This document shows positions 1 to 9,323 of a stretch of 29,142 nt of DNA, piece after piece (the stretch's first letter is position 1; every line of letters starts with the position of its first letter). The notes beneath the pieces are model-generated. The model did not search any database. It was given only the letters and a program-made list of their open reading frames with translations, and was not told where the DNA came from. Made by a program: the position numbers and the translations under genes. The stretch is from an uncultured Prevotella sp. GTDB lineage: Bacteria; Bacteroidota; Bacteroidia; Bacteroidales; Bacteroidaceae. Location: the NCBI GenBank assembly GCA_900557035.1, contig USRA01000021.1, positions 1 to 29,142 on the forward strand, read 5' to 3'.

Positions 1-337
1 GCATCAGATCAACAAACGATGAATAGCGCATGATGCCGGAATAGGTATGGAAGATCCGCATACCCACGACAAAGAGTGGAAGGGTGCAGACGTAAGTGAG
101 GACATAACTCCAGAAATTATTAGCCACCACTTCTCCGCCTTCTGCGATATAGGTGGCTATCATACCTGCAAAGAGAATCGCGATGCTATCCAATGACAGG
201 ATGCACCAATATGGAAGGGCGCTCTTAGAAAAATACCAACTTGTCAAACGATTGACGAAGAGGGACACCTTAAGCTTGTAGAACATCCCTGCGAATGGGG
301 TCTTGTTTGGTTGATTCTGATTATACAGCTTACTCAT
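1..337 (-). CDS. CapD/FlaA1-type polysaccharide biosynthesis protein (partial, N-terminal 112 codons)
   Basis: The frame opens with ATG at 337 and runs off the left edge, giving 112 codons. The visible part has a short basic N-terminus, then a hydrophobic segment around residues 47-65 and another around 78-95. It then reads HTYSGIMRYSSFVDL, which matches the membrane-anchored front end of the CapD/WbpM/FlaA1 family (nucleotide-sugar 4,6-dehydratases/epimerases with an F/H-x-Y-x-G-x-x-R-Y-S-S signature). The NAD-binding Rossmann domain would lie outside the window. It begins 21 nt after the NusG-like gene on the same strand, so the two are probably co-transcribed as the start of an exopolysaccharide or capsule locus. 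The family is inferred from this N-terminal signature only; the catalytic part is not visible. Confidence 0.8.
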   Translation of the reverse strand, partial: MSKLYNQNQPNKTPFAGMFYKLKVSLFVNRLTSWYFSKSALPYWCILSLDSIAILFAGMIATYIAEGGEVVANNFWSYVLTYVCTLPLFVVGMRIFHTYSGIMRYSSFVDLM

Positions 338-358
338 AAACTTATATCTTATCTTTTT

Positions 359-2389
359 TTATTTTTTATTCTTTCTCATACCGGCTGTGGCTGTCTTCCT
401 GATACGGTCTGATACAGCCTTTGTCTTCTGGAGGAAGGATGGGTATTTAAAATACGTCCATGCATCTTCTTCCTGCAGTTCAACCATTCCCTTATAGAGA
501 TAGTTGACTACACTCTCCTGCTTCTCGCTCTGCTGGATGATGGCATCGAAGAGCGCCGTGCAGGTTTCATTGGGATTGAAGTCCGCCCGGATATAGTTGT
601 AAAGCTCATCCTTGGCGAAATGGGCAGAGATGACCTTCGTCATGGCGAGGAAGCGGATGGCTGCCTGCTGCAACTGTCCGCTTGCCAGATAACCGGTTAT
701 CTGCTCCTGTCGCTGCCGGAGTGCCTGGGCGATGTCTTCTATCTGGAGTCTGCCTTCCTGCGGCTTGAACTTCTCCTCCAGTTCGATATCGGAAGCGATG
801 ACACTCGGGAGGTCGGCTACCGGAACCTTATGGAGCAGGACATATCGCTGGAGCAACTGTCGCCACATCAGGAGTCGGGCGCCCTGCCACATCTCTACGG
901 CTGCTGCCGTGGTCTGGGAGATGAAGCCCGGTTCGTCGCCATCGGATGCCTGAAGCAGAACGACAGCCTTCCGTGCCATCTCCTGGATATCCTCCGTATA
1001 AGGAATATCCAAATCCATGGAGAAGCCGCCTATCTGACCAACTTTCTCAAAACGGTATCTGTTTTGAGTGAGCAGATGCAGGAGGCGGGGATATTTCCTG
1101 TTTTCCAGATCGAGGAGGAACTTCTGGCGCTCTTCCTCATTCTGCATGGCATACTTCTCATAGAAGGCGCCCCAGGAGGTGATTGCCTTCACCCTTCCAT
1201 CACCGTTTGGCAACAGGGCGATGTGGGCATCATATTCATAATCCTCATCGAAGACGGGATTGAACTTGTCGGCTTCATATTCCTTGCTCCGGAAGAAATC
1301 CCTGAGATGGCAGCGGAGAACGAGTTCCACGATACCATTGTGCCAGAACACGGCATATTCCTGACCTGCGGAAATCGGGATGCCGGTGCTCGGCGTGAGG
1401 AAGGGACGGAGCAGGACATCGGGGATAAGCTCGTTCAGAGCATCCCACATGGTAGCATTGTCGGTCTTGAAATAGGCTGCGAGAATGCGGAAGTTGGGAT
1501 GCATCGCCTCATCAATATGATCGAGCACTTCCTTCTTCTGGGCTTCTTCCAGTGTTGACTTCTGTATGCTGTATGCCTTATCGGTCTGATTTCTACCGCG
1601 GTGAAGCTTCAGTTTCTTCTGATAATCCTCGAAAAGGCGGCGCAGGGTGGCTGCGGCATCTTCTTCAGGATTCCGGAACTGGAGATAACCGATGAGCTGG
1701 TCGATGGCACGCCATACGCCTACTGCTTCCGACTTGGCTCCGCGGGTTGCCTCGTGTTCTACCTGGATATCATACTGTCGGATATTGGAGATATTGAGGC
1801 AGCGATTGTTTCCGAAGCGTACCAGGAAATGGCGGTCTTTCTTGCCGTTCTTCTTGATCTGCTTCACCACGCCTACCCAACCCTTCAGCGGTCCGTTGAG
1901 GATGCGGATGGTATCATTCTCGAGGATGAGGTCGTCATAGCTCTTATCTACGATGCTGAGTCCCTGAATGTCTTCCGCAATCTGTTCATTATAGTAGATG
2001 AACCGTTCCATATCCGCATCTGGGATGCGGGCGAGGTCGATGATCTCACGGAGGGTATAGTTCTCTCTATCGGCACAGAGGAGTCGAGCCCGGGTAAAGA
2101 AGGTACGTTCTACCGTCTCTCCGGTGTTCCTATCGATATCATATCCCATGTATTCGAAATAGCCGTGATGGGAAAGGTTTCGCTCCAGTGCCTTCCTGTT
2201 TTCTGTCCGGATGAAGAAGAGGCCTGAAAGGAGGGGCATGAAACGAACCTTCTCACTCCCCTCTTCGTTCCTGTAGATCTTTCTTCCCAGCGGGAAATAA
2301 TAATCTGAGATGACTTCGGGGTAATGCTCCTTCAAAAAGTCGATGGACTTATTCTCTCCGGAAGTTACGGTCTGTATGATGAACCACAT
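359..2389 (-). CDS. Long NusG/UpxY-like transcription antitermination protein with large C-terminal extension
   Basis: This 676-residue protein starts MWFIIQTVTSGENKSIDFL, typical of NusG-family N-terminal domains (roughly residues 1-145; note PLLSGLFFI near 52-60 and IPDADMERFI near 122-131, as in UpxY-type proteins). A KOW segment follows at about 158-207 (GPLKGWVGVVKQI). UpxY/NusG paralogues are normally about 170-200 residues, so about 465 residues here are an unexplained extension with no membrane segment, rich in charged and helical-looking stretches, ending in a basic tail (RKTATAGMRKNKK). UpxY proteins bind RNA polymerase at the leader of their own polysaccharide operon and prevent early termination. 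Its place as first gene before a CapD-like gene, behind a ~300 nt leader, fits that role. The NusG assignment is strong; the function of the extension is unknown. Confidence 0.8.
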   Translation of the reverse strand: MWFIIQTVTSGENKSIDFLKEHYPEVISDYYFPLGRKIYRNEEGSEKVRFMPLLSGLFFIRTENRKALERNLSHHGYFEYMGYDIDRNTGETVERTFFTRARLLCADRENYTLREIIDLARIPDADMERFIYYNEQIAEDIQGLSIVDKSYDDLILENDTIRILNGPLKGWVGVVKQIKKNGKKDRHFLVRFGNNRCLNISNIRQYDIQVEHEATRGAKSEAVGVWRAIDQLIGYLQFRNPEEDAAATLRRLFEDYQKKLKLHRGRNQTDKAYSIQKSTLEEAQKKEVLDHIDEAMHPNFRILAAYFKTDNATMWDALNELIPDVLLRPFLTPSTGIPISAGQEYAVFWHNGIVELVLRCHLRDFFRSKEYEADKFNPVFDEDYEYDAHIALLPNGDGRVKAITSWGAFYEKYAMQNEEERQKFLLDLENRKYPRLLHLLTQNRYRFEKVGQIGGFSMDLDIPYTEDIQEMARKAVVLLQASDGDEPGFISQTTAAAVEMWQGARLLMWRQLLQRYVLLHKVPVADLPSVIASDIELEEKFKPQEGRLQIEDIAQALRQRQEQITGYLASGQLQQAAIRFLAMTKVISAHFAKDELYNYIRADFNPNETCTALFDAIIQQSEKQESVVNYLYKGMVELQEEDAWTYFKYPSFLQKTKAVSDRIRKTATAGMRKNKK

Positions 2390-2482
2390 ATATGTAACTG
2401 CTAAAATTCATTAACGGACATTGTGGTAAGTATATAGCTCTGCTTCCCCTGGAAAGATGACTCTTCCCGGACTATGAGGGGT

Positions 2483-2498
2483 TGTGATATGTATCACA
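2483..2498. promoter_or_regulatory. CRP-like palindrome TGTGATATGTATCACA in the leader
   Basis: Perfect 7-bp inverted arms (TGTGATA / TATCACA) around a 2-nt centre. The sequence fits the classical CRP/FNR half-site arrangement TGTGA-N6-TCACA exactly. It lies about 190 nt downstream of the predicted transcription start and 94 nt before the start codon, so it may be a roadblock-type operator or an RNA hairpin in the leader. Which of the two it is cannot be told from sequence. Confidence 0.45.
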
Positions 2499-2692
2499 GC
2501 ATTGAAAACCAATAGACTCACTTCCACTAATCGTCAACACTTTTATGTCTTTCTGCCGGCTGCATCATAGATACAGCGTAGCTTGGGTACTGCAACATAT
2601 TATTCATATTGATTGCTCCTTAGAAAGCCATTTTATTATTTCTTAGTTCGAGATTCACTATTGTCTCGTGTCATGAGACTGTGAAATCTGTT

Positions 2693-2725
2693 GCAAAAGT
2701 ACAAAAAATAATGAATATAAACAAA
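2693..2725 (-). promoter_or_regulatory. Bacteroidetes-type promoter for the polysaccharide operon
   Basis: On the minus strand there is a TTTG (-33) at 2725-2722, a 20-nt spacer, and TACTTTTG (-7) at 2701-2694. This is a full match to the Bacteroidetes primary sigma factor consensus. Transcription would start near 2686, leaving a leader of about 300 nt before the NusG-like gene. Confidence 0.8.
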
Positions 2726-2888
2726 TTATATGTGTTAATTTTTAGCGGATTTTTTAAGGATTTTGGGTTGAAACCGCAGATTTGAGGCTTTATTGGGGTT
2801 TCAACGTGCTATGGATGAAAGGGTTAAGGGGAAATTGGGGAAAATTGGTTCATTTTGGTTCATTTTTGATTCATACCACTGCCCCCAT

Positions 2889-3122
2889 CTTTTTATTCAT
2901 CGGATTACACAGAATTTACGGATATCCTTTCTCACTTCACGGATTACGCACGGATTTGAAACGGAAAGCGACCTGTACGGTCGTGTGCTGAAACCGCTGT
3001 AGGGAGGGTCCCACAGATTTCACGGATCAACACAGATTTTGACCAGTCCGGATAAGGGACCATCCACAACTTCCGATAATACAATGAATAAAATCTGTGT
3101 AAATCTGTGAAATCTGTGGGAG
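2889..3122. repeat. Interspersed 'cacagattt' repeat element, long inverted-repeat copy
   Basis: The stretch contains TTCATCGGATTACACAGAA near 2896, a degenerate 'cacggatt' block near 2938-2957, and GACCTGTACGGTC near 2970. The segment 3009-3040 recurs in inverted orientation at 3090-3121 with 3 mismatches in 32 and a 49-bp spacer, so it can form a long hairpin. The same sub-motifs recur in the same order at 5669-5766. I see no convincing gene in 2726-3180; the rest of this 811-bp gap is the leader and promoter of the gene at 359-2389. Confidence 0.75.
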
Positions 3123-3184
3123 AAATACGGACGGGGAAAGCATTAAAACTTGTGAAAAAGGGAGGGGATGTGAGATTTTTGTTT

Positions 3185-3192
3185 TACCTTTG
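3185..3192 (+). promoter_or_regulatory. -7 promoter box TACCTTTG for the 3228-3776 gene
   Basis: TACCTTTG matches the Bacteroidetes -7 box. A canonical -33 TTTG is not obvious upstream. The implied transcription start, near 3198-3200, falls almost on the first ATG (3201), which argues for translation starting at the internal ATG codons at 3228 or 3234. Confidence 0.55.
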
Positions 3193-3227
3193 TAGCTTCA
3201 ATGATGATTCAAGATAAAATACATTCA

Positions 3228-3776
3228 ATGAATATGGAAAATAAAAGCAAAAGAATAGAAGAGATCTTCAAACAGGATCTGAGTATGTACCTTGCTGGCA
3301 AACAGCGTGTTGACGAGCAGCTTCCGGATGCTCCAGACATCGAGAAACAGTGGGCTAAGATAGGCGAAAGCTATCTGCCTGACGCCATGCGCGAGTTCAG
3401 CAAATACCCTACCGTAGCGCTGGGATGGATTATGTTTGTAGGCATGGCCATCGCCAAATACTGGGACGAAGACTGGGAGTTGTATGGCAAGGTAGATAAT
3501 CTTTATGAATACCTCAGAGACCGCATTGATTTCGACCACATGGACGACTATATTCTCGACCAGGTTCTGCTGCTCGACGAGAACGAGCACTCTGCTACTT
3601 CTACCATCGTAGCAGAGTGTGCCGCACGCACCTATACCCTGCTCATCCATCAGGGATATGAGCCTGGTACTGAGGCAGCTTTCCGTGGTTTCATTGCAGC
3701 TTTACATCAAATGTATCTGATGGGCGCTGCCATGGAGCTGAAAAGACTGGGTTATCACATGACACAGCTGCAGTAA
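3228..3776 (+). CDS. Conserved-looking hypothetical protein
   Basis: I do not recognise a family. The frame is open from ATG 3201, but the -7 box ends at 3192, so the ATG at 3228 or 3234 (MNMENKSKR...) is the more likely start, giving about 181-183 residues. The protein looks soluble and helical. It has a charged N-terminus, a moderately hydrophobic stretch (TVALGWIMFVGMAIAKYW) too short and polar-flanked to be a clear membrane anchor, and many acidic residues (YWDEDWELYGKVD; DHMDDYILDQVLLLDENE). No signal peptide or catalytic motif stands out. It lies alone between a repeat element and the sulP gene, each with its own promoter. No hairpin terminator is visible after it. It is probably real because it has a promoter, a good length and coding-like codon use. 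Confidence 0.7.
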   Translation: MNMENKSKRIEEIFKQDLSMYLAGKQRVDEQLPDAPDIEKQWAKIGESYLPDAMREFSKYPTVALGWIMFVGMAIAKYWDEDWELYGKVDNLYEYLRDRIDFDHMDDYILDQVLLLDENEHSATSTIVAECAARTYTLLIHQGYEPGTEAAFRGFIAALHQMYLMGAAMELKRLGYHMTQLQ

Positions 3777-3819
3777 AGCCCTTTGCGGTTCAAAAACATC
3801 AAGAAAGTTTAAAAAAGAT

Positions 3820-3850
3820 TTTGTTATATGAAATAATAGTTGTACCTTTG
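3820..3850 (+). promoter_or_regulatory. Promoter of the SulP transporter gene
   Basis: TTTG at 3820-3823, a 19-nt spacer and TACCTTTG at 3843-3850 match the Bacteroidetes consensus. The downstream sequence CAGTCGTTTTTC resembles that following the tRNA-Cys and cupin promoters. The leader to the ATG at 3911 is about 50 nt. Confidence 0.8.
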
Positions 3851-3910
3851 CAGTCGTTTTTCGGATAACGAAGCAAAAATCACATTAATTCATATAACAA
3901 AACTTTTTAA

Positions 3911-5599
3911 ATGAAGGCAATAGCAATTAAGTCGAGGTTGTTTTCTTGCTTGAAGAGTTACAACAAGAAAACATTCATGTCTGACCTCATGGCAGGTATC
4001 ATCGTTGGTATCGTAGCCCTGCCTCTGGCCATCGCATTCGGTATCGCTTCTGGCGTGACACCCGAGAAGGGTATCATCACAGCCATAGTAGCGGGTCTCA
4101 TCATCTCCATCTTCGGCGGAAGCAAAGTGCAGATCGGCGGACCTACAGGAGCATTCATCGTCATCATCTACGGCATCATCCAGAAGTATGGATTCGAGGG
4201 ATTGACCATCGCAACGCTGATGGCAGGTCTCTTCCTGGTGCTCTTCGGACTGCTCCGACTCGGTACCATCATCAAGTACATCCCTTATCCTATCGTGGTA
4301 GGTTTCACCAGCGGTATCGCCGTTACCATCTTCACCACGCAGATTAAGGACCTCTTTGGTTTGACATTGGCTTCTAACCCTTCTGACTTCCTGGAGAAAT
4401 GGGGTGTCTACTTCCAGAGTTTCGACACCATCGACCCTTGGTGCGCCCTCATCGGTGTGGTGAGCGTGGTGGTCATCGCCATCACTCCTAAGTTCAGCAA
4501 GAAGATTCCGGGTTCGCTCATCGCCATCATCCTGATGACCGTTGTGGCACTGCTGCTCAAGCAGTTTGCCGGCGTAGAGAGCATCGAGACCATCGGCGAC
4601 CGTTTCTCTATCAGCAACGAGTTGCCTGCTGCCCAGGTTCCTGAGATGAACTGGGAGACCATCAAGAGTCTGGTATCTCCTGCCATCACCATCGCCATCC
4701 TCGGTGCCATCGAGAGTCTGCTCTCTGCTACCGTTGCCGACGGTGTAATCAGCGACCACCACGACTCTAATACTGAGTTGATCGCCCAGGGTCTGGCGAA
4801 CATCGCTTCCCCACTCTTCGGCGGTATTCCTGCTACCGGCGCCATCGCCCGCACGATGACCAATATCAACAACGGCGGCAAGACTCCTATCGCTGGTATC
4901 ATCCACGCAGTGGTACTGCTGCTCATCTTCCTCTTCCTGATGCCGCTCGCCAAGTATATTCCTATGGCTTGTCTGGCTGGTGTACTGGTTGTGGTTTCCT
5001 ATGGTATGAGTGGCTGGAGAAGCTTCCTGGGTCTGATGAAGAATCCTAAGAGCGACGTTACCGTGCTCCTGATTACCTTCTTCCTGACCATCATCTTCGA
5101 CCTGACCATTGCCATCGAGGTGGGTCTGATCATCGCCTGCCTGCTCTTCATGAAACGAATGAGCGAGACTACCGATGTAACTGCTATCACAGAGGACGAG
5201 ATTGACCTGAACAAGGAGTATGACTTCCTTTCTACCAACCTGGAGCACTATACGATTCCTAAGGGTGTAGAGGTATATGAAATCAACGGTCCTTTCTTCT
5301 TCGGAGCAGGTAATAAGTTTGAGGAAGTGATGGCTGCCTTCGGCGACCGTCCTTTGGTTCGCGTCATCCGTATGCGTAAGGTTCCATTCGTGGATTCTAC
5401 CGGTATCCACAACCTCACCAACCTCTGCGAGATGAGTCAGAAGGAGGATATCCAGGTTGTTCTCTCCGGTGTCTGCGAAAAGGTAAACGCCCAGTTGGAG
5501 AAGGCGGGCTTCTACAATATGCTCGGCAAGGAGAACATCACTGATCATATCAGCAAGGCGCTGAAGCGTGCTGAAGAGATCATTGAGGCTAATAAATAA
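3911..5599 (+). CDS. SulP-family inorganic anion transporter with STAS domain
   Basis: The 562-residue protein has the SulP layout. A cytoplasmic N-terminus leads into a transporter core of multiple membrane segments at about 25-415, including the typical FMSDLMAGIIVGIVALPLA start, GGPTGAFIV at 77-84 and PYPIVVGFTSGIAV at 126-138. A C-terminal cytoplasmic STAS domain follows at about 450-555, with the conserved VPFVDSTGIHNL loop at 491-502. SulP proteins move sulfate, bicarbonate or related anions, usually with Na+ or H+. The substrate cannot be assigned: no carbonic anhydrase or sulfate-assimilation gene is adjacent. Length and domain order are normal. It is monocistronic, with its own promoter at 3820-3850 and a strong terminator at 5621-5660. 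Confidence 0.93.
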   Translation: MKAIAIKSRLFSCLKSYNKKTFMSDLMAGIIVGIVALPLAIAFGIASGVTPEKGIITAIVAGLIISIFGGSKVQIGGPTGAFIVIIYGIIQKYGFEGLTIATLMAGLFLVLFGLLRLGTIIKYIPYPIVVGFTSGIAVTIFTTQIKDLFGLTLASNPSDFLEKWGVYFQSFDTIDPWCALIGVVSVVVIAITPKFSKKIPGSLIAIILMTVVALLLKQFAGVESIETIGDRFSISNELPAAQVPEMNWETIKSLVSPAITIAILGAIESLLSATVADGVISDHHDSNTELIAQGLANIASPLFGGIPATGAIARTMTNINNGGKTPIAGIIHAVVLLLIFLFLMPLAKYIPMACLAGVLVVVSYGMSGWRSFLGLMKNPKSDVTVLLITFFLTIIFDLTIAIEVGLIIACLLFMKRMSETTDVTAITEDEIDLNKEYDFLSTNLEHYTIPKGVEVYEINGPFFFGAGNKFEEVMAAFGDRPLVRVIRMRKVPFVDSTGIHNLTNLCEMSQKEDIQVVLSGVCEKVNAQLEKAGFYNMLGKENITDHISKALKRAEEIIEANK

Positions 5600-5780: not shown

Positions 5781-6521
5781 CTACAGGACTTTTCCCAGGA
5801 ACTCCTGGAGTCTTGGAGACTTCGGATGATTGAAGACTTCTTCAGGGGTACCATCCTCCGTAATATATCCGTCACTGAAGAAGAGCACACGATTGGCAAC
5901 TTCACGGGCAAAGCCCATTTCGTGGGTTACAACCACCATCATCATACCTTCGGCAGCCACATCCTTCATCAACTGCAATACTTCTCCTACCATCTCCGGG
6001 TCGAGCGCAGAAGTTGGTTCATCGAAAAGAAGAACCTCCGGATTCATTGCCAGGGCACGGACGATGGCTACACGCTGCTTCTGTCCGCCCGAAAGGCTAT
6101 CCGGATAACTGTCTGCCTTGTCCAGCAATCCGATGCGGGAGAGAAGCTCTGTCGCCTTCTCATCCGCCTCTTCACGGGTCATCTTCCCCAACTCTACCGG
6201 TGCCAGCATGATATTGCGGCGGATAGTCATGTTCGGGAAAAGATTAAACTGCTGGAACACCATACCCACCCGCTGACGCATCTTATTGATATCTACATCC
6301 CAGGAGGTAAGGTCTATGCCATCGATCAGAATCTTTCCCTCCGTAGGTTCCTCCAAGAGATTGATGGAACGCAGGAAGGTACTCTTGCCACAGCCCGACG
6401 GGCCAATAATGGCAACCACTTCGCCCTGTTTGATGGAAGTGGTAATGCCTTTCAGGACTTCGTTGTCGCCGAAGCGCTTGCGAAGTCCTTCTATCTTGAT
6501 TATCTCGTTCATTTTATCCAT
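5781..6521 (-). CDS. Polar amino-acid ABC transporter ATP-binding protein (GlnQ/HisP type)
   Basis: The 246-residue protein is an ABC ATPase of normal length. Walker [10 protein letters not shown] is at 40-48, the Q-loop glutamine at about 90 ([10 protein letters not shown]), the signature LSGGQ at 143-147, Walker B VLLFDEPT at 163-170 with the D-loop SALD, and the switch histidine at 200 (THEMGFA). The VFQQFNLFP motif and length are typical of the polar amino-acid uptake (PAAT) family. It begins 4 nt after the stop of the binding protein-permease fusion, so the two form one transporter: a homodimer of the ATPase energises two fused permease subunits. An alternative start at 6512 (MNEIIK) would remove three residues. 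The substrate is unknown; the upstream serine dehydratase hints at an amino acid feeding serine catabolism. Confidence 0.93.
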
Positions 6522-6525
6522 TCTA

Positions 6526-8079
6526 TTATCTTTCGCTCTTTCTCAAACGCTTTTCCAACTTTCTCACTCCGGCATTCAGTCCGAGGACGATGATGAGATA
6601 CAGGCAGGCAACCACACCCAATGGCATCATTGCCTCGTAGGTGATGCTGCGGATGATATCGGAACCCTTGGTAAGATCCACGAGACCGATGTAACCGCTG
6701 ATGGAAGTCTCCTTAAGCAGGGTGATAAGCTCATTACCCATCGCCGGCAGCACATTCTTGAAGGCTTGTGGCAGGATGATGAGTCGCATGGTCTTGCCAT
6801 AAGAAAGACCGAGACTTCTACCCGCTTCCATCTGTCCCTCATCTACCGACATGATACCCGAACGGATGACCTCGGCAATATATGCCGCAGAGTTCAAACC
6901 GAAGGCTATGACAGCCACCAGGATCTTGTTGACATCGGCAGAGGCGAAGACCACATAATAGATGATGAGCAACTGCACCATGGTAGGTGTACCACGCATG
7001 ATGGTGAGATACAACTGGCAGAGCATATTCGGAATGCGCCAACCACCCCGACGTTCGTGACGGGCACGGACAATGGCTATCAGCGTACCGAGAATCACGG
7101 AGAGGATGATGGCGAAGAAGGTGATGACGAGCGTATTGCCCAATCCCTGCAGGAGATACTCATAGCGGTTGTCATCGATGAAGCAAGACTTGAACTTGTC
7201 CAGAACTCCATGCTGTGAATCAGCCACTTCTGTATTTTCAGAATTTACCATGATGACCTGTCGCACATCGGCGTAGGAATCGGTGAATCCGATGTTCTTC
7301 TCCCGCTCCGGGGTGACGGTAATACCGGCGATACCGGCATCAGCCTTACCAGCCTGTACGGAAGTGATGATGGCATCAAACTCCATATCAAGAATCTCGA
7401 CATCCACGCCCATCACATCGCCGATGGCATTCGCCACATCTACATCGATACCCACAATCTTACCATCCTGGTAGTACTCGAATGGTTCGAAGGTGGCATT
7501 GGTGGCAAAGCGGAGACTCTTCTTCAGCCCGAGCTTCTGCAGCGCTTCCGGTCCAACCTTCTTCACATCCGAAGCCTTAGGCGTATAAGCCACGGCAATG
7601 CCCCGTTCCAGATGGCGGTTGACGATGGAATCGATGACGCCATTCGCCTTCAGGATACGGATGGCATGATTGATGGACTGCTGCAACTCGGCATGATCCT
7701 TTGCCACACAGATGGCGAAAGAGGAGGCATCGAAGGTTTCCGGCAGAATGCGGAGAGAAGGATTCACCCGCTGGAATGCCTTGGCTGGTGCCTCATCGGT
7801 CACCATACAGTCGATCTTACCCTGAAGGAGTGCCTGAATGGCATCGGCTCCCTTGTTGTATCGTTCTACCTTGGTGCCATCTCCTTTCTTTTCCAACTCA
7901 GTGGCAAGGCCGTCGCTGGTGGTACCTAACTGTACGCCGATAACGGCGCCCTGCAAATCAGCCTTCGTCTTCAACTGCTTCTTCGCATCGGAAGAATCCG
8001 AGCCGCAGGAAGCCAGAAGAAGACAGGCTGCTATTACTAAAGTACTTAAACTAAATTGTTTTAATCTATTATAAATCAT
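6526..8079 (-). CDS. Fused substrate-binding lipoprotein / amino-acid ABC permease, binding domain apparently circularly permuted
   Basis: This 517-residue protein starts with a lipoprotein signal (LLASC, Cys25). Residues ~36-158 resemble the second half of a GlnH-type binding protein ([46 protein letters not shown]). After a ~27-residue linker, residues 187-285 resemble the first half ([56 protein letters not shown]). From about 300 to the end lies a HisM/GlnP-type permease, with the coupling helix near 405-426 ([16 protein letters not shown]). In ordinary family members the first half precedes the second, so the order here is swapped. The ligand-binding Arg (TPERE) and the second-lobe Asp (VTDEA) both appear present. 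It follows serine dehydratase by 35 nt and precedes its ATPase by 4 nt. The lipid anchor and the permease would tether both ends of the binding domain at the membrane. Confidence 0.9.
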
Positions 8080-8114: not shown

Positions 8115-9323
8115 TTATTCTCCTTTAAAGCCTTTAGCCAAACCGCCCTCGCTGGTTTCCTTATAGAGCGAAGGGAGATCGTGACCGGTCTGTCGCATTA
8201 CCTCTACTACTCTATCGAACGATACGCTGTGATGACCATCCGAGAAGGAAGCGTAGAGATCAGCATCCAGGGCACGGGCAGCCGCAAAGGCATTGCGCTC
8301 GATACAAGGAATCTGTACCAATCCGCAAACCGGGTCGCAGGTCATACCCAGGTGATGCTCCAATCCCATTTCGGCAGCATACTCTACCTGAGCAGGACTA
8401 CCACCAAAGAGCTGGCATGCTGCAGCTGAAGCCATCGCACAGGCTACACCTACCTCACCCTGGCAACCCACATCAGCACCACTGATAGAAGCATTGTGCT
8501 TGACGATGTTACCCACCAATCCGGCAGTAGCCAAAGCGCGGAGGATGCGGTCCTCGCTCATTTCATGGGCGGTATGCATGTGATAGAGTACGGCAGGAAG
8601 CACACCACAGGCACCACAGGTAGGAGCCGTAACGATGGTACCGCCCGATGCATTCTCCTCACTCACCGCCAGTGCATAGGAATAAACCAGTCCGCGGCTC
8701 TGCAAGGAAGCACGATAGCCCTTTGCCTTGATATGATAGACTGCTGCCTTGCGCTGGAGTTTCAGCGGTCCAGGCAAGACACCCTCATGACTGAGACCAT
8801 TGCGGATAGACTGCTTCATGGTTTCCCAGATCTTGCGGAGATAATCCCAGATATCCGGATCCTCGCATTTCTCCACGTATTCCCAGAAAGAGCGGCCGTT
8901 GTCGTAGCACCATTTCTGGATTTCCGCCATCGTCTTCAGGTCATAGACATCTTCAGCGCCCAACTCCGACTGTCCTTCAGAACCATCCGAGATGGCACCG
9001 CCACCGATGCTATATACAGTCCACTCATCAATCACGTCGCCATTCAGGTCCTTGCCCACAAACTTCATTCCGTTAGGATGGAAAGGCAGGAAGACCTGAG
9101 GCTTCCAAATGATATGCACAATATGCTTCTTGAGCACTTCCTCGATAGCCACATCGGTCATGTGACCCTTGCCGGTAGCAGCCAGGGCACCATACAATGT
9201 AACTTCGTAGGACGAAGCGTTAGCACAACGCTCCAGGAAGAGCTTAGCTGCACGCTGAGGTCCCATCGTATGACTGCTCGATGGTCCCTTGCCAATTCGG
9301 TATAACTCCTTTAAAGATTTCAT
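8115..9323 (-). CDS. sdaA: L-serine ammonia-lyase (iron-sulfur serine dehydratase)
   Basis: L-serine is deaminated to pyruvate and ammonia. The 402-residue single chain carries the N-terminal beta-domain signature GPSSSHTMGP (13-22) and the C-terminal alpha domain. The latter has conserved cysteines in APTCGACGVLPAVLYHMH, GCQGEVGVACAMASAAACQLFGG and CDPVCGLVQIPCIERN, which include the [4Fe-4S] ligands. Some Gram-positive bacteria split the two domains into separate subunits; here they are fused. Its start is 55 nt after the cyclophilin gene's stop, and an amino-acid ABC transporter follows 35 nt downstream, all on one strand. This suggests a unit that imports and degrades serine or a related amino acid, although the transporter's substrate is not proven. 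No internal promoter was seen. Confidence 0.95.
   Translation of the reverse strand: MKSLKELYRIGKGPSSSHTMGPQRAAKLFLERCANASSYEVTLYGALAATGKGHMTDVAIEEVLKKHIVHIIWKPQVFLPFHPNGMKFVGKDLNGDVIDEWTVYSIGGGAISDGSEGQSELGAEDVYDLKTMAEIQKWCYDNGRSFWEYVEKCEDPDIWDYLRKIWETMKQSIRNGLSHEGVLPGPLKLQRKAAVYHIKAKGYRASLQSRGLVYSYALAVSEENASGGTIVTAPTCGACGVLPAVLYHMHTAHEMSEDRILRALATAGLVGNIVKHNASISGADVGCQGEVGVACAMASAAACQLFGGSPAQVEYAAEMGLEHHLGMTCDPVCGLVQIPCIERNAFAAARALDADLYASFSDGHHSVSFDRVVEVMRQTGHDLPSLYKETSEGGLAKGFKGE

Follow-up and report, generated by a model that had tools for sequence, protein, structure and literature searches.

A natural circular permutation of a family-3 substrate-binding domain in a Prevotella binding protein-permease fusion and its relatives in gut Clostridia

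In Escherichia coli GlnH/GlnP/GlnQ, the substrate-binding protein (SBP), the permease, and the ATPase are separate subunits and the SBP has the canonical order, while Lactococcus lactis GlnPQ has a PAAT permease with covalently attached family-3 substrate-binding domains (SBDs). The SBDs of GlnPQ (SBD tandem 6h30) are in the usual N-C order, the first half of the domain (N) preceding the second (C). Natural circular permutation has been described for OpuAC-type binding proteins (PMC2395249) and for TpMglB-2 (Tp0684), a naturally permuted SBP proposed as 'Type Ic / Cluster Bc' (PMC4990184). Here we analyze a gene in the window, the whole 29,142-nt contig USRA01000021.1 of an uncultured Prevotella sp. 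(GCA_900557035.1), whose product belongs with its neighbor to the same SBP, permease, and ATPase families as GlnH/GlnP/GlnQ, but is a fusion of permease and SBD in which, unlike in GlnPQ, the SBD is permuted. Among the open-licence papers listed by our literature searches, none describes a naturally permuted family-3 amino-acid SBP.

The two described cases differ from this one. In the OpuAC study, the glycine betaine-binding OpuAC of Bacillus subtilis, which is of another family, is compared with ProX and molybdate-binding proteins, and the identity is below 24% for any permuted and unpermuted pair (PMC2395249), whereas permuted and canonical relatives in the present family are about 50-75% identical per half. 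TpMglB-2, as described in the part of the paper available to us, is similar in being a tethered permuted SBP whose relatives occur in treponemes and in Gram-positive bacteria of the gut, and its authors consider that tethering might account for the permutation; it differs in its Type I sugar-binding fold, another cut, and a fourth hinge crossing, and that part makes no mention of a permease fusion (PMC4990184).

The permutation of the window protein is evident from its matches to canonical binding proteins. In a phmmer search of PDB sequences, residues 9-108 of AncQR (4zv1) match residues 186-284 of the window protein (independent E-value 3.3e-21), and AncQR residues 108-228 match residues 35-154 (7.2e-18), so the second half precedes the first. 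The alignment with E. coli GlnBP agrees: window residues 187-285 correspond to GlnBP 3-101 and residues 36-155 to GlnBP 101-219, the inverse of the canonical order of SBP family 3. The chain is thus cut at about GlnBP 101, and only the few last C-terminal residues of GlnBP are unmatched. The preliminary description had claimed the order second half, linker, first half, permease and had proposed aligning each half to a canonical protein; both alignments bear out this order, and the lipobox, the permease, and the linker, at about residues 160-186, were found as it described. At the level of sequence, the circular permutation of the family-3 SBD is confirmed. The features of the gene are as follows.

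8079..6526, minus strand: gene of the window protein, 517 aa, a lipoprotein fused to an amino-acid permease
8005..8079, minus strand: signal peptide and lipobox, residues 1-25 (LLASC25), from the sequence; C25 is invariant in alignment A1 (23 rows)
7606..7974, minus strand: SBD half that comes second in canonical proteins and here first, residues 36-158
7522..7605, minus strand: new linker (residues 159-186) bridging the original C- and N-termini
7225..7521, minus strand: SBD half that comes first in canonical proteins and here second, residues 187-285, from the alignment and PF00497
7162..7224, minus strand: connector between SBD and permease, residues 286-306, from the sequence
6526..7161, minus strand: permease domain PF00528, residues 307-517 and stop, from Pfam and the PDB match

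The linker differs in length among homologues. PF00497 matches residues 189-339 with 118.5 bits (gathering cut-off 26.4), and the best stretch spans only profile positions 1-98 of 132, showing that permuted SBPs are read only partly by domain models. Because the order of its halves is inverted, we file the window protein as a permuted variant of the PF00497 family; PF04069, the OpuAC family, is absent from the three families found for it at E <= 0.001. The permease matches 4yms_D at residues 309-514 (E 1.4e-43, phmmer against PDB sequences) and PF00528 at residues 334-514, and this BPD_transp_1 permease shares a gene cluster with a GlnQ-type ATPase, as expected of a PAAT importer.

AlphaFold2 predicts the permuted SBD as a single confident domain (predicted local distance difference test score, pLDDT, 91.8), supporting one bilobed fold. 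In the full-length model a helix appears in the connector at residues 292-302 with low confidence, and the model was too weak to derive the docking geometry from it, which we dropped. GlnBP R75 and D157, which we take to be amino-acid contact positions, correspond to R259 and D95 of the window protein, and both are invariant in A1. The preliminary claim that the ligand-contact regions of both lobes are kept is therefore supported, though some side-chain contacts differ (GlnBP D10 to N194, K115 to Q50, and H156 to T94). The break, which had been placed in the loop ahead of lobe 2, lies elsewhere: with GlnBP lobe 2 at 90-180 and the hinge at 85-89, as published (PMC13229503), the cut falls inside lobe 2, one strand past the first hinge strand.

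We consider it very likely that the window protein is the SBP-permease subunit of a PAAT ABC (ATP-binding cassette) importer with a naturally circularly permuted SBD. Its chain runs from the lipid anchor through most of lobe 2, the second hinge strand, and the C-terminal part of lobe 1, and then through the new linker, the N-terminal part of lobe 1, the first hinge strand, and the last strand of lobe 2 to the permease. Compared with GlnBP, this topology is inside-out: lobe 1 is contiguous and nested in lobe 2, which carries both ends of the chain, so that the lipid anchor and, in fused forms, the permease attach to lobe 2 rather than lobe 1. Because both hinge strands and most contact positions are kept, Venus flytrap binding and closing like those of GlnBP would be expected, and the permuted SBD would dock on the permease dimer, with the adjacently encoded GlnQ-like ATPase driving the import of polar amino acids.

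The same order is widespread among relatives. Among the 120 closest protein homologues listed (of 2865 matches), 117 have the full order C-N-permease, two are C-N-C-N-permease, and one is truncated. In named genomes, the best 80 of 261 relatives were kept (17 from Prevotellaceae, 2 from Victivallales, and 61 from Bacillota, 36 of them Lachnospiraceae). Fifty of these 80 are C-N-permease fusions, 15 are free-standing permuted C-N lipoproteins beside a separate permease gene, and 13 have canonical N-C SBPs at the same position; in the other two (L089 and L095), both at a contig end, only the permease is visible. The permuted order is also found in genomes titled as isolates, namely Segatella copri, Roseburia faecis, three Blautia species, and Lachnobacterium bovis, with fused forms in one frame or the SBP as a single frame. 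In the nearest genus the gene is patchy, with a full-length match (E below 1e-170) in 3 of 36 genomes. The preliminary statement that Firmicutes fusions retain the usual order therefore does not hold here: in this family the permuted order is common among Firmicutes relatives.

We also sampled 80 genomes of the family to which the Roseburia faecis genome belongs, taken as Lachnospiraceae. P0121 was matched in 63 of them at E <= 1e-20, and the loci were read in 43 of these 63 genomes. Fifteen of the 43 loci have the C-N order (perm-1), 12 have a second permuted order, Cb-N-Ca (perm-2), 15 are canonical, and one is a single chain of C-N-C-N SBDs, permease, and ATPase (L155 in G079, 1106-4537, plus strand, 1143 aa). 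The 15 perm-1 loci comprise 4 fused and 11 free forms, and two of the latter (L101 and L119) are genes already counted among the 15 of 80, leaving 9 further genes. The preliminary description suggested that the rearrangement lets the anchor tether one end of the domain and the permease the other. As a cause of the permutation this is not supported: since free-standing permutants exist (15 of 80 relatives and 11 of 15 perm-1 loci), it is unlikely that the chain was permuted on account of its fusion to the permease.

The perm-2 order was recognized in P0243 (L130), in which residues 44-81 align with GlnBP 183-220 and residues 102-269 with GlnBP 5-165, and the alignment with AncQR gives the same order. 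This places the cut at GlnBP ~165-183, in lobe 2 or at its end. Orthologues with this second permutation occur in 12 of the 80 sampled genomes, and the L130 form was found in all 3 available genomes of its genus (76-100% identity), which makes an assembly error an unlikely explanation for it. Since the cuts of perm-1 and perm-2 both lie in lobe 2, lobe 1 is in either case contiguous and nested in lobe 2, where the chain begins and ends.

A permuted SBP of a second family, P0244 (L110), is present in Roseburia faecis. It is about 30% identical to the first-family SBP, and its permease is more distant (transmembrane (TM) score 96 bits, compared with 329 for the first-family permease). In this family, 31 of 60 genomes of the Roseburia family match at E <= 1e-15; the C-N form was found in 5 genomes of that sample (69-100% identical to P0244), and canonical N-C sisters were found at 9 read loci (59-74% identical per half). 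In a tree of hand-chosen rows from both families (family A, 16 perm-1 and 19 canonical; family B, 5 perm-1 and 12 canonical), forcing all permuted rows into a single clade lowers the log-likelihood by 296 and is rejected (approximately unbiased (AU) test p 7.7e-5). Perm-1 must therefore have had two or more origins, unless there were repeated reversions from a permuted ancestor, and the second family appears to have been permuted independently at the first loop.

The history of the first family was read from trees in which SBD segments were restored to canonical order (111 rows), after 18 of 146 loci identical in two segments and 19 of 53 fused perm-1 rows that were near-duplicates had been dropped. 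The main perm-1 clade (55 rows, Shimodaira-Hasegawa-like approximate likelihood ratio test (SH-aLRT) 96) lies within a background of canonical clostridial SBPs, and its deepest branch consists of three free forms (support 83). The fused rows fall into a group of 34 that encloses one free form (support 86), and within it the eight Prevotellaceae rows form a clade (support 99). In the permease tree, the Prevotellaceae join fused forms of the Lachnospira/Lachnobacterium type (support 99), and the free perm-1 rows are scattered (11 changes), with L072, L122, and L124 adjoining canonical rows, so the permease did not always accompany one type of SBP. Because free forms hold the deepest perm-1 branch, the permutation probably preceded the fusion in this clade, and the nesting of the Prevotellaceae copies in fused Lachnospiraceae forms suggests horizontal transfer of the fused form to Prevotellaceae. 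We infer that the chain was most likely permuted while the SBP was still a separate lipoprotein in Clostridia, for instance through a tandem duplication that was later trimmed, and that fusion to the permease and then the transfer came afterwards. In the tandem of 6h30, the stretch C1-N2 reads like a permuted unit (window protein residues 34-272 on chain 100-322), suggesting this possible route of origin.

Two further origins were considered and set aside. In a bootstrap tree of 48 chosen rows, L129 groups with the canonical L139 (97/97), and the chosen perm-1 rows form one clade in 0 of 200 bootstrap trees. In topology tests on a reduced SBD tree (13 distant loci removed, 96 of the 111 rows kept), a single perm-1 origin in family A was not rejected with L129 included (AU p 0.366, 0.114 in a second test), nor was one perm-2 origin with L130 included (AU p 0.814, 0.446 in a second test); in the 96-row test, the tree holding L130 with the other perm-2 rows scored even better than the free tree. 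Because single origins are not rejected, perm-1 and perm-2 of family A are counted once each.

Some relatives show more elaborate architectures. L017 (G036; 238-3090, minus strand) encodes 950 aa in one frame with a permease, a permuted C-N SBD, a TM-like hydrophobic stretch, and an ABC ATPase (PF00528, PF00497, and PF00005), and L018 (G019) encodes a single-chain importer of the same type; both are in the nearest genus. L004 (G048), P0112, and P0117 are tandem C-N-C-N-permease proteins, and the two tandem copies in P0112 and P0117 are nearly identical. The domain pairing in such tandems is ambiguous, since the middle N1-C2 could pair canonically. In the trees, the distant C-N-C-N and single-chain relatives (L004-L007 and L155) lie on long branches.

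The genes flanking the window gene are listed below.

5781..6521, minus strand: GlnQ-like ATPase gene, 4 bp downstream of the SBP-permease gene
8115..9323, minus strand: L-serine ammonia-lyase gene (sdaA), 35 bp upstream

Of the 83 loci scanned for neighbors (L001-L003 and L021-L100), 82 have a GlnQ-like ATPase homologue next after the permease, and in the exception, L049, the contig ends there. At two Victivallales loci (L094, 2810.., plus strand; L097, 5925.., plus strand), an extra SBP-like frame with weaker half-domain matches follows the ATPase. The only matches of sdaA were at L001 and L021, both from the same S. copri contig. The gene has no match at L071, a further S. copri locus, and where the upstream flank is short it could not be seen. 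The L-serine ammonia-lyase gene is not a conserved partner of the importer, and serine-specific transport, considered because of sdaA, was rejected as weak since the gene was matched only on that contig.

The inverted order could be thought to arise from assembly or annotation, as two half-genes or a misassembled tandem. Chimera-like metagenome proteins do occur in a separate listing of 120 proteins (17 C-N-C and 2 N-C-N), and two of the C-N-C proteins, P0122 and P0233, have a common suffix and different prefixes. Because different prefixes carry a common suffix in those compared, the C-N-C proteins are probably assembly chimeras of permuted and canonical paralogues, and we set them aside as evolutionary intermediates. 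With the order found in frame in independent isolate genomes and C-N-TM in 117 of the 120 best homologues, we regard an artefact as having a negligible chance of explaining the window protein. An exchange between chains is also improbable, albeit less extremely so. Permeases of this family act as dimers, and the linker of the fused form looks long enough for the halves to pair across the two chains, rebuilding canonical lobes with no permuted domain within a chain. However, the same order is found in free-standing lipoproteins (the 15 of 80 loci and the 9 further genes), and the single chain folds confidently in AlphaFold, which is a weak test on this point.

The permuted domain being the preferred reading, its consequences for function are more evenly balanced. 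That the permutation was neutral, with nearby chain ends rejoined and function and docking unchanged, comes close to an even chance in our estimate. Canonical and permuted relatives adjoin the same kind of permease and ATPase, which agrees with neutrality, whereas the two cuts, at GlnBP ~101 and ~165-183, both put the ends of the chain on lobe 2, and the first cut recurs in the second family. This pattern may reflect selection, or else a bias in mutation or structure, although three events make a small sample for this question. More tentatively, and in our view rather doubtfully, the family-3 SBPs of gut Clostridia may have been permuted at least three times (in two families at the same lobe-2 loop, and once more at the second cut elsewhere in lobe 2), always inside-out, because moving the membrane tether from lobe 1 to lobe 2 alters docking or delivery on the permease.

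If the latter were true, the permuted proteins would make up a class of their own among tethered SBPs, 'Type IIc'. Natural circular permutation has often been inferred between far-diverged proteins. Here, close permuted and unpermuted relatives in genomes of one family, beside the same kind of permease and with two cuts, one of them repeated in a second SBP family, make it testable how a permutant arises, whether the steps are neutral, and how tethering by either lobe affects transport.
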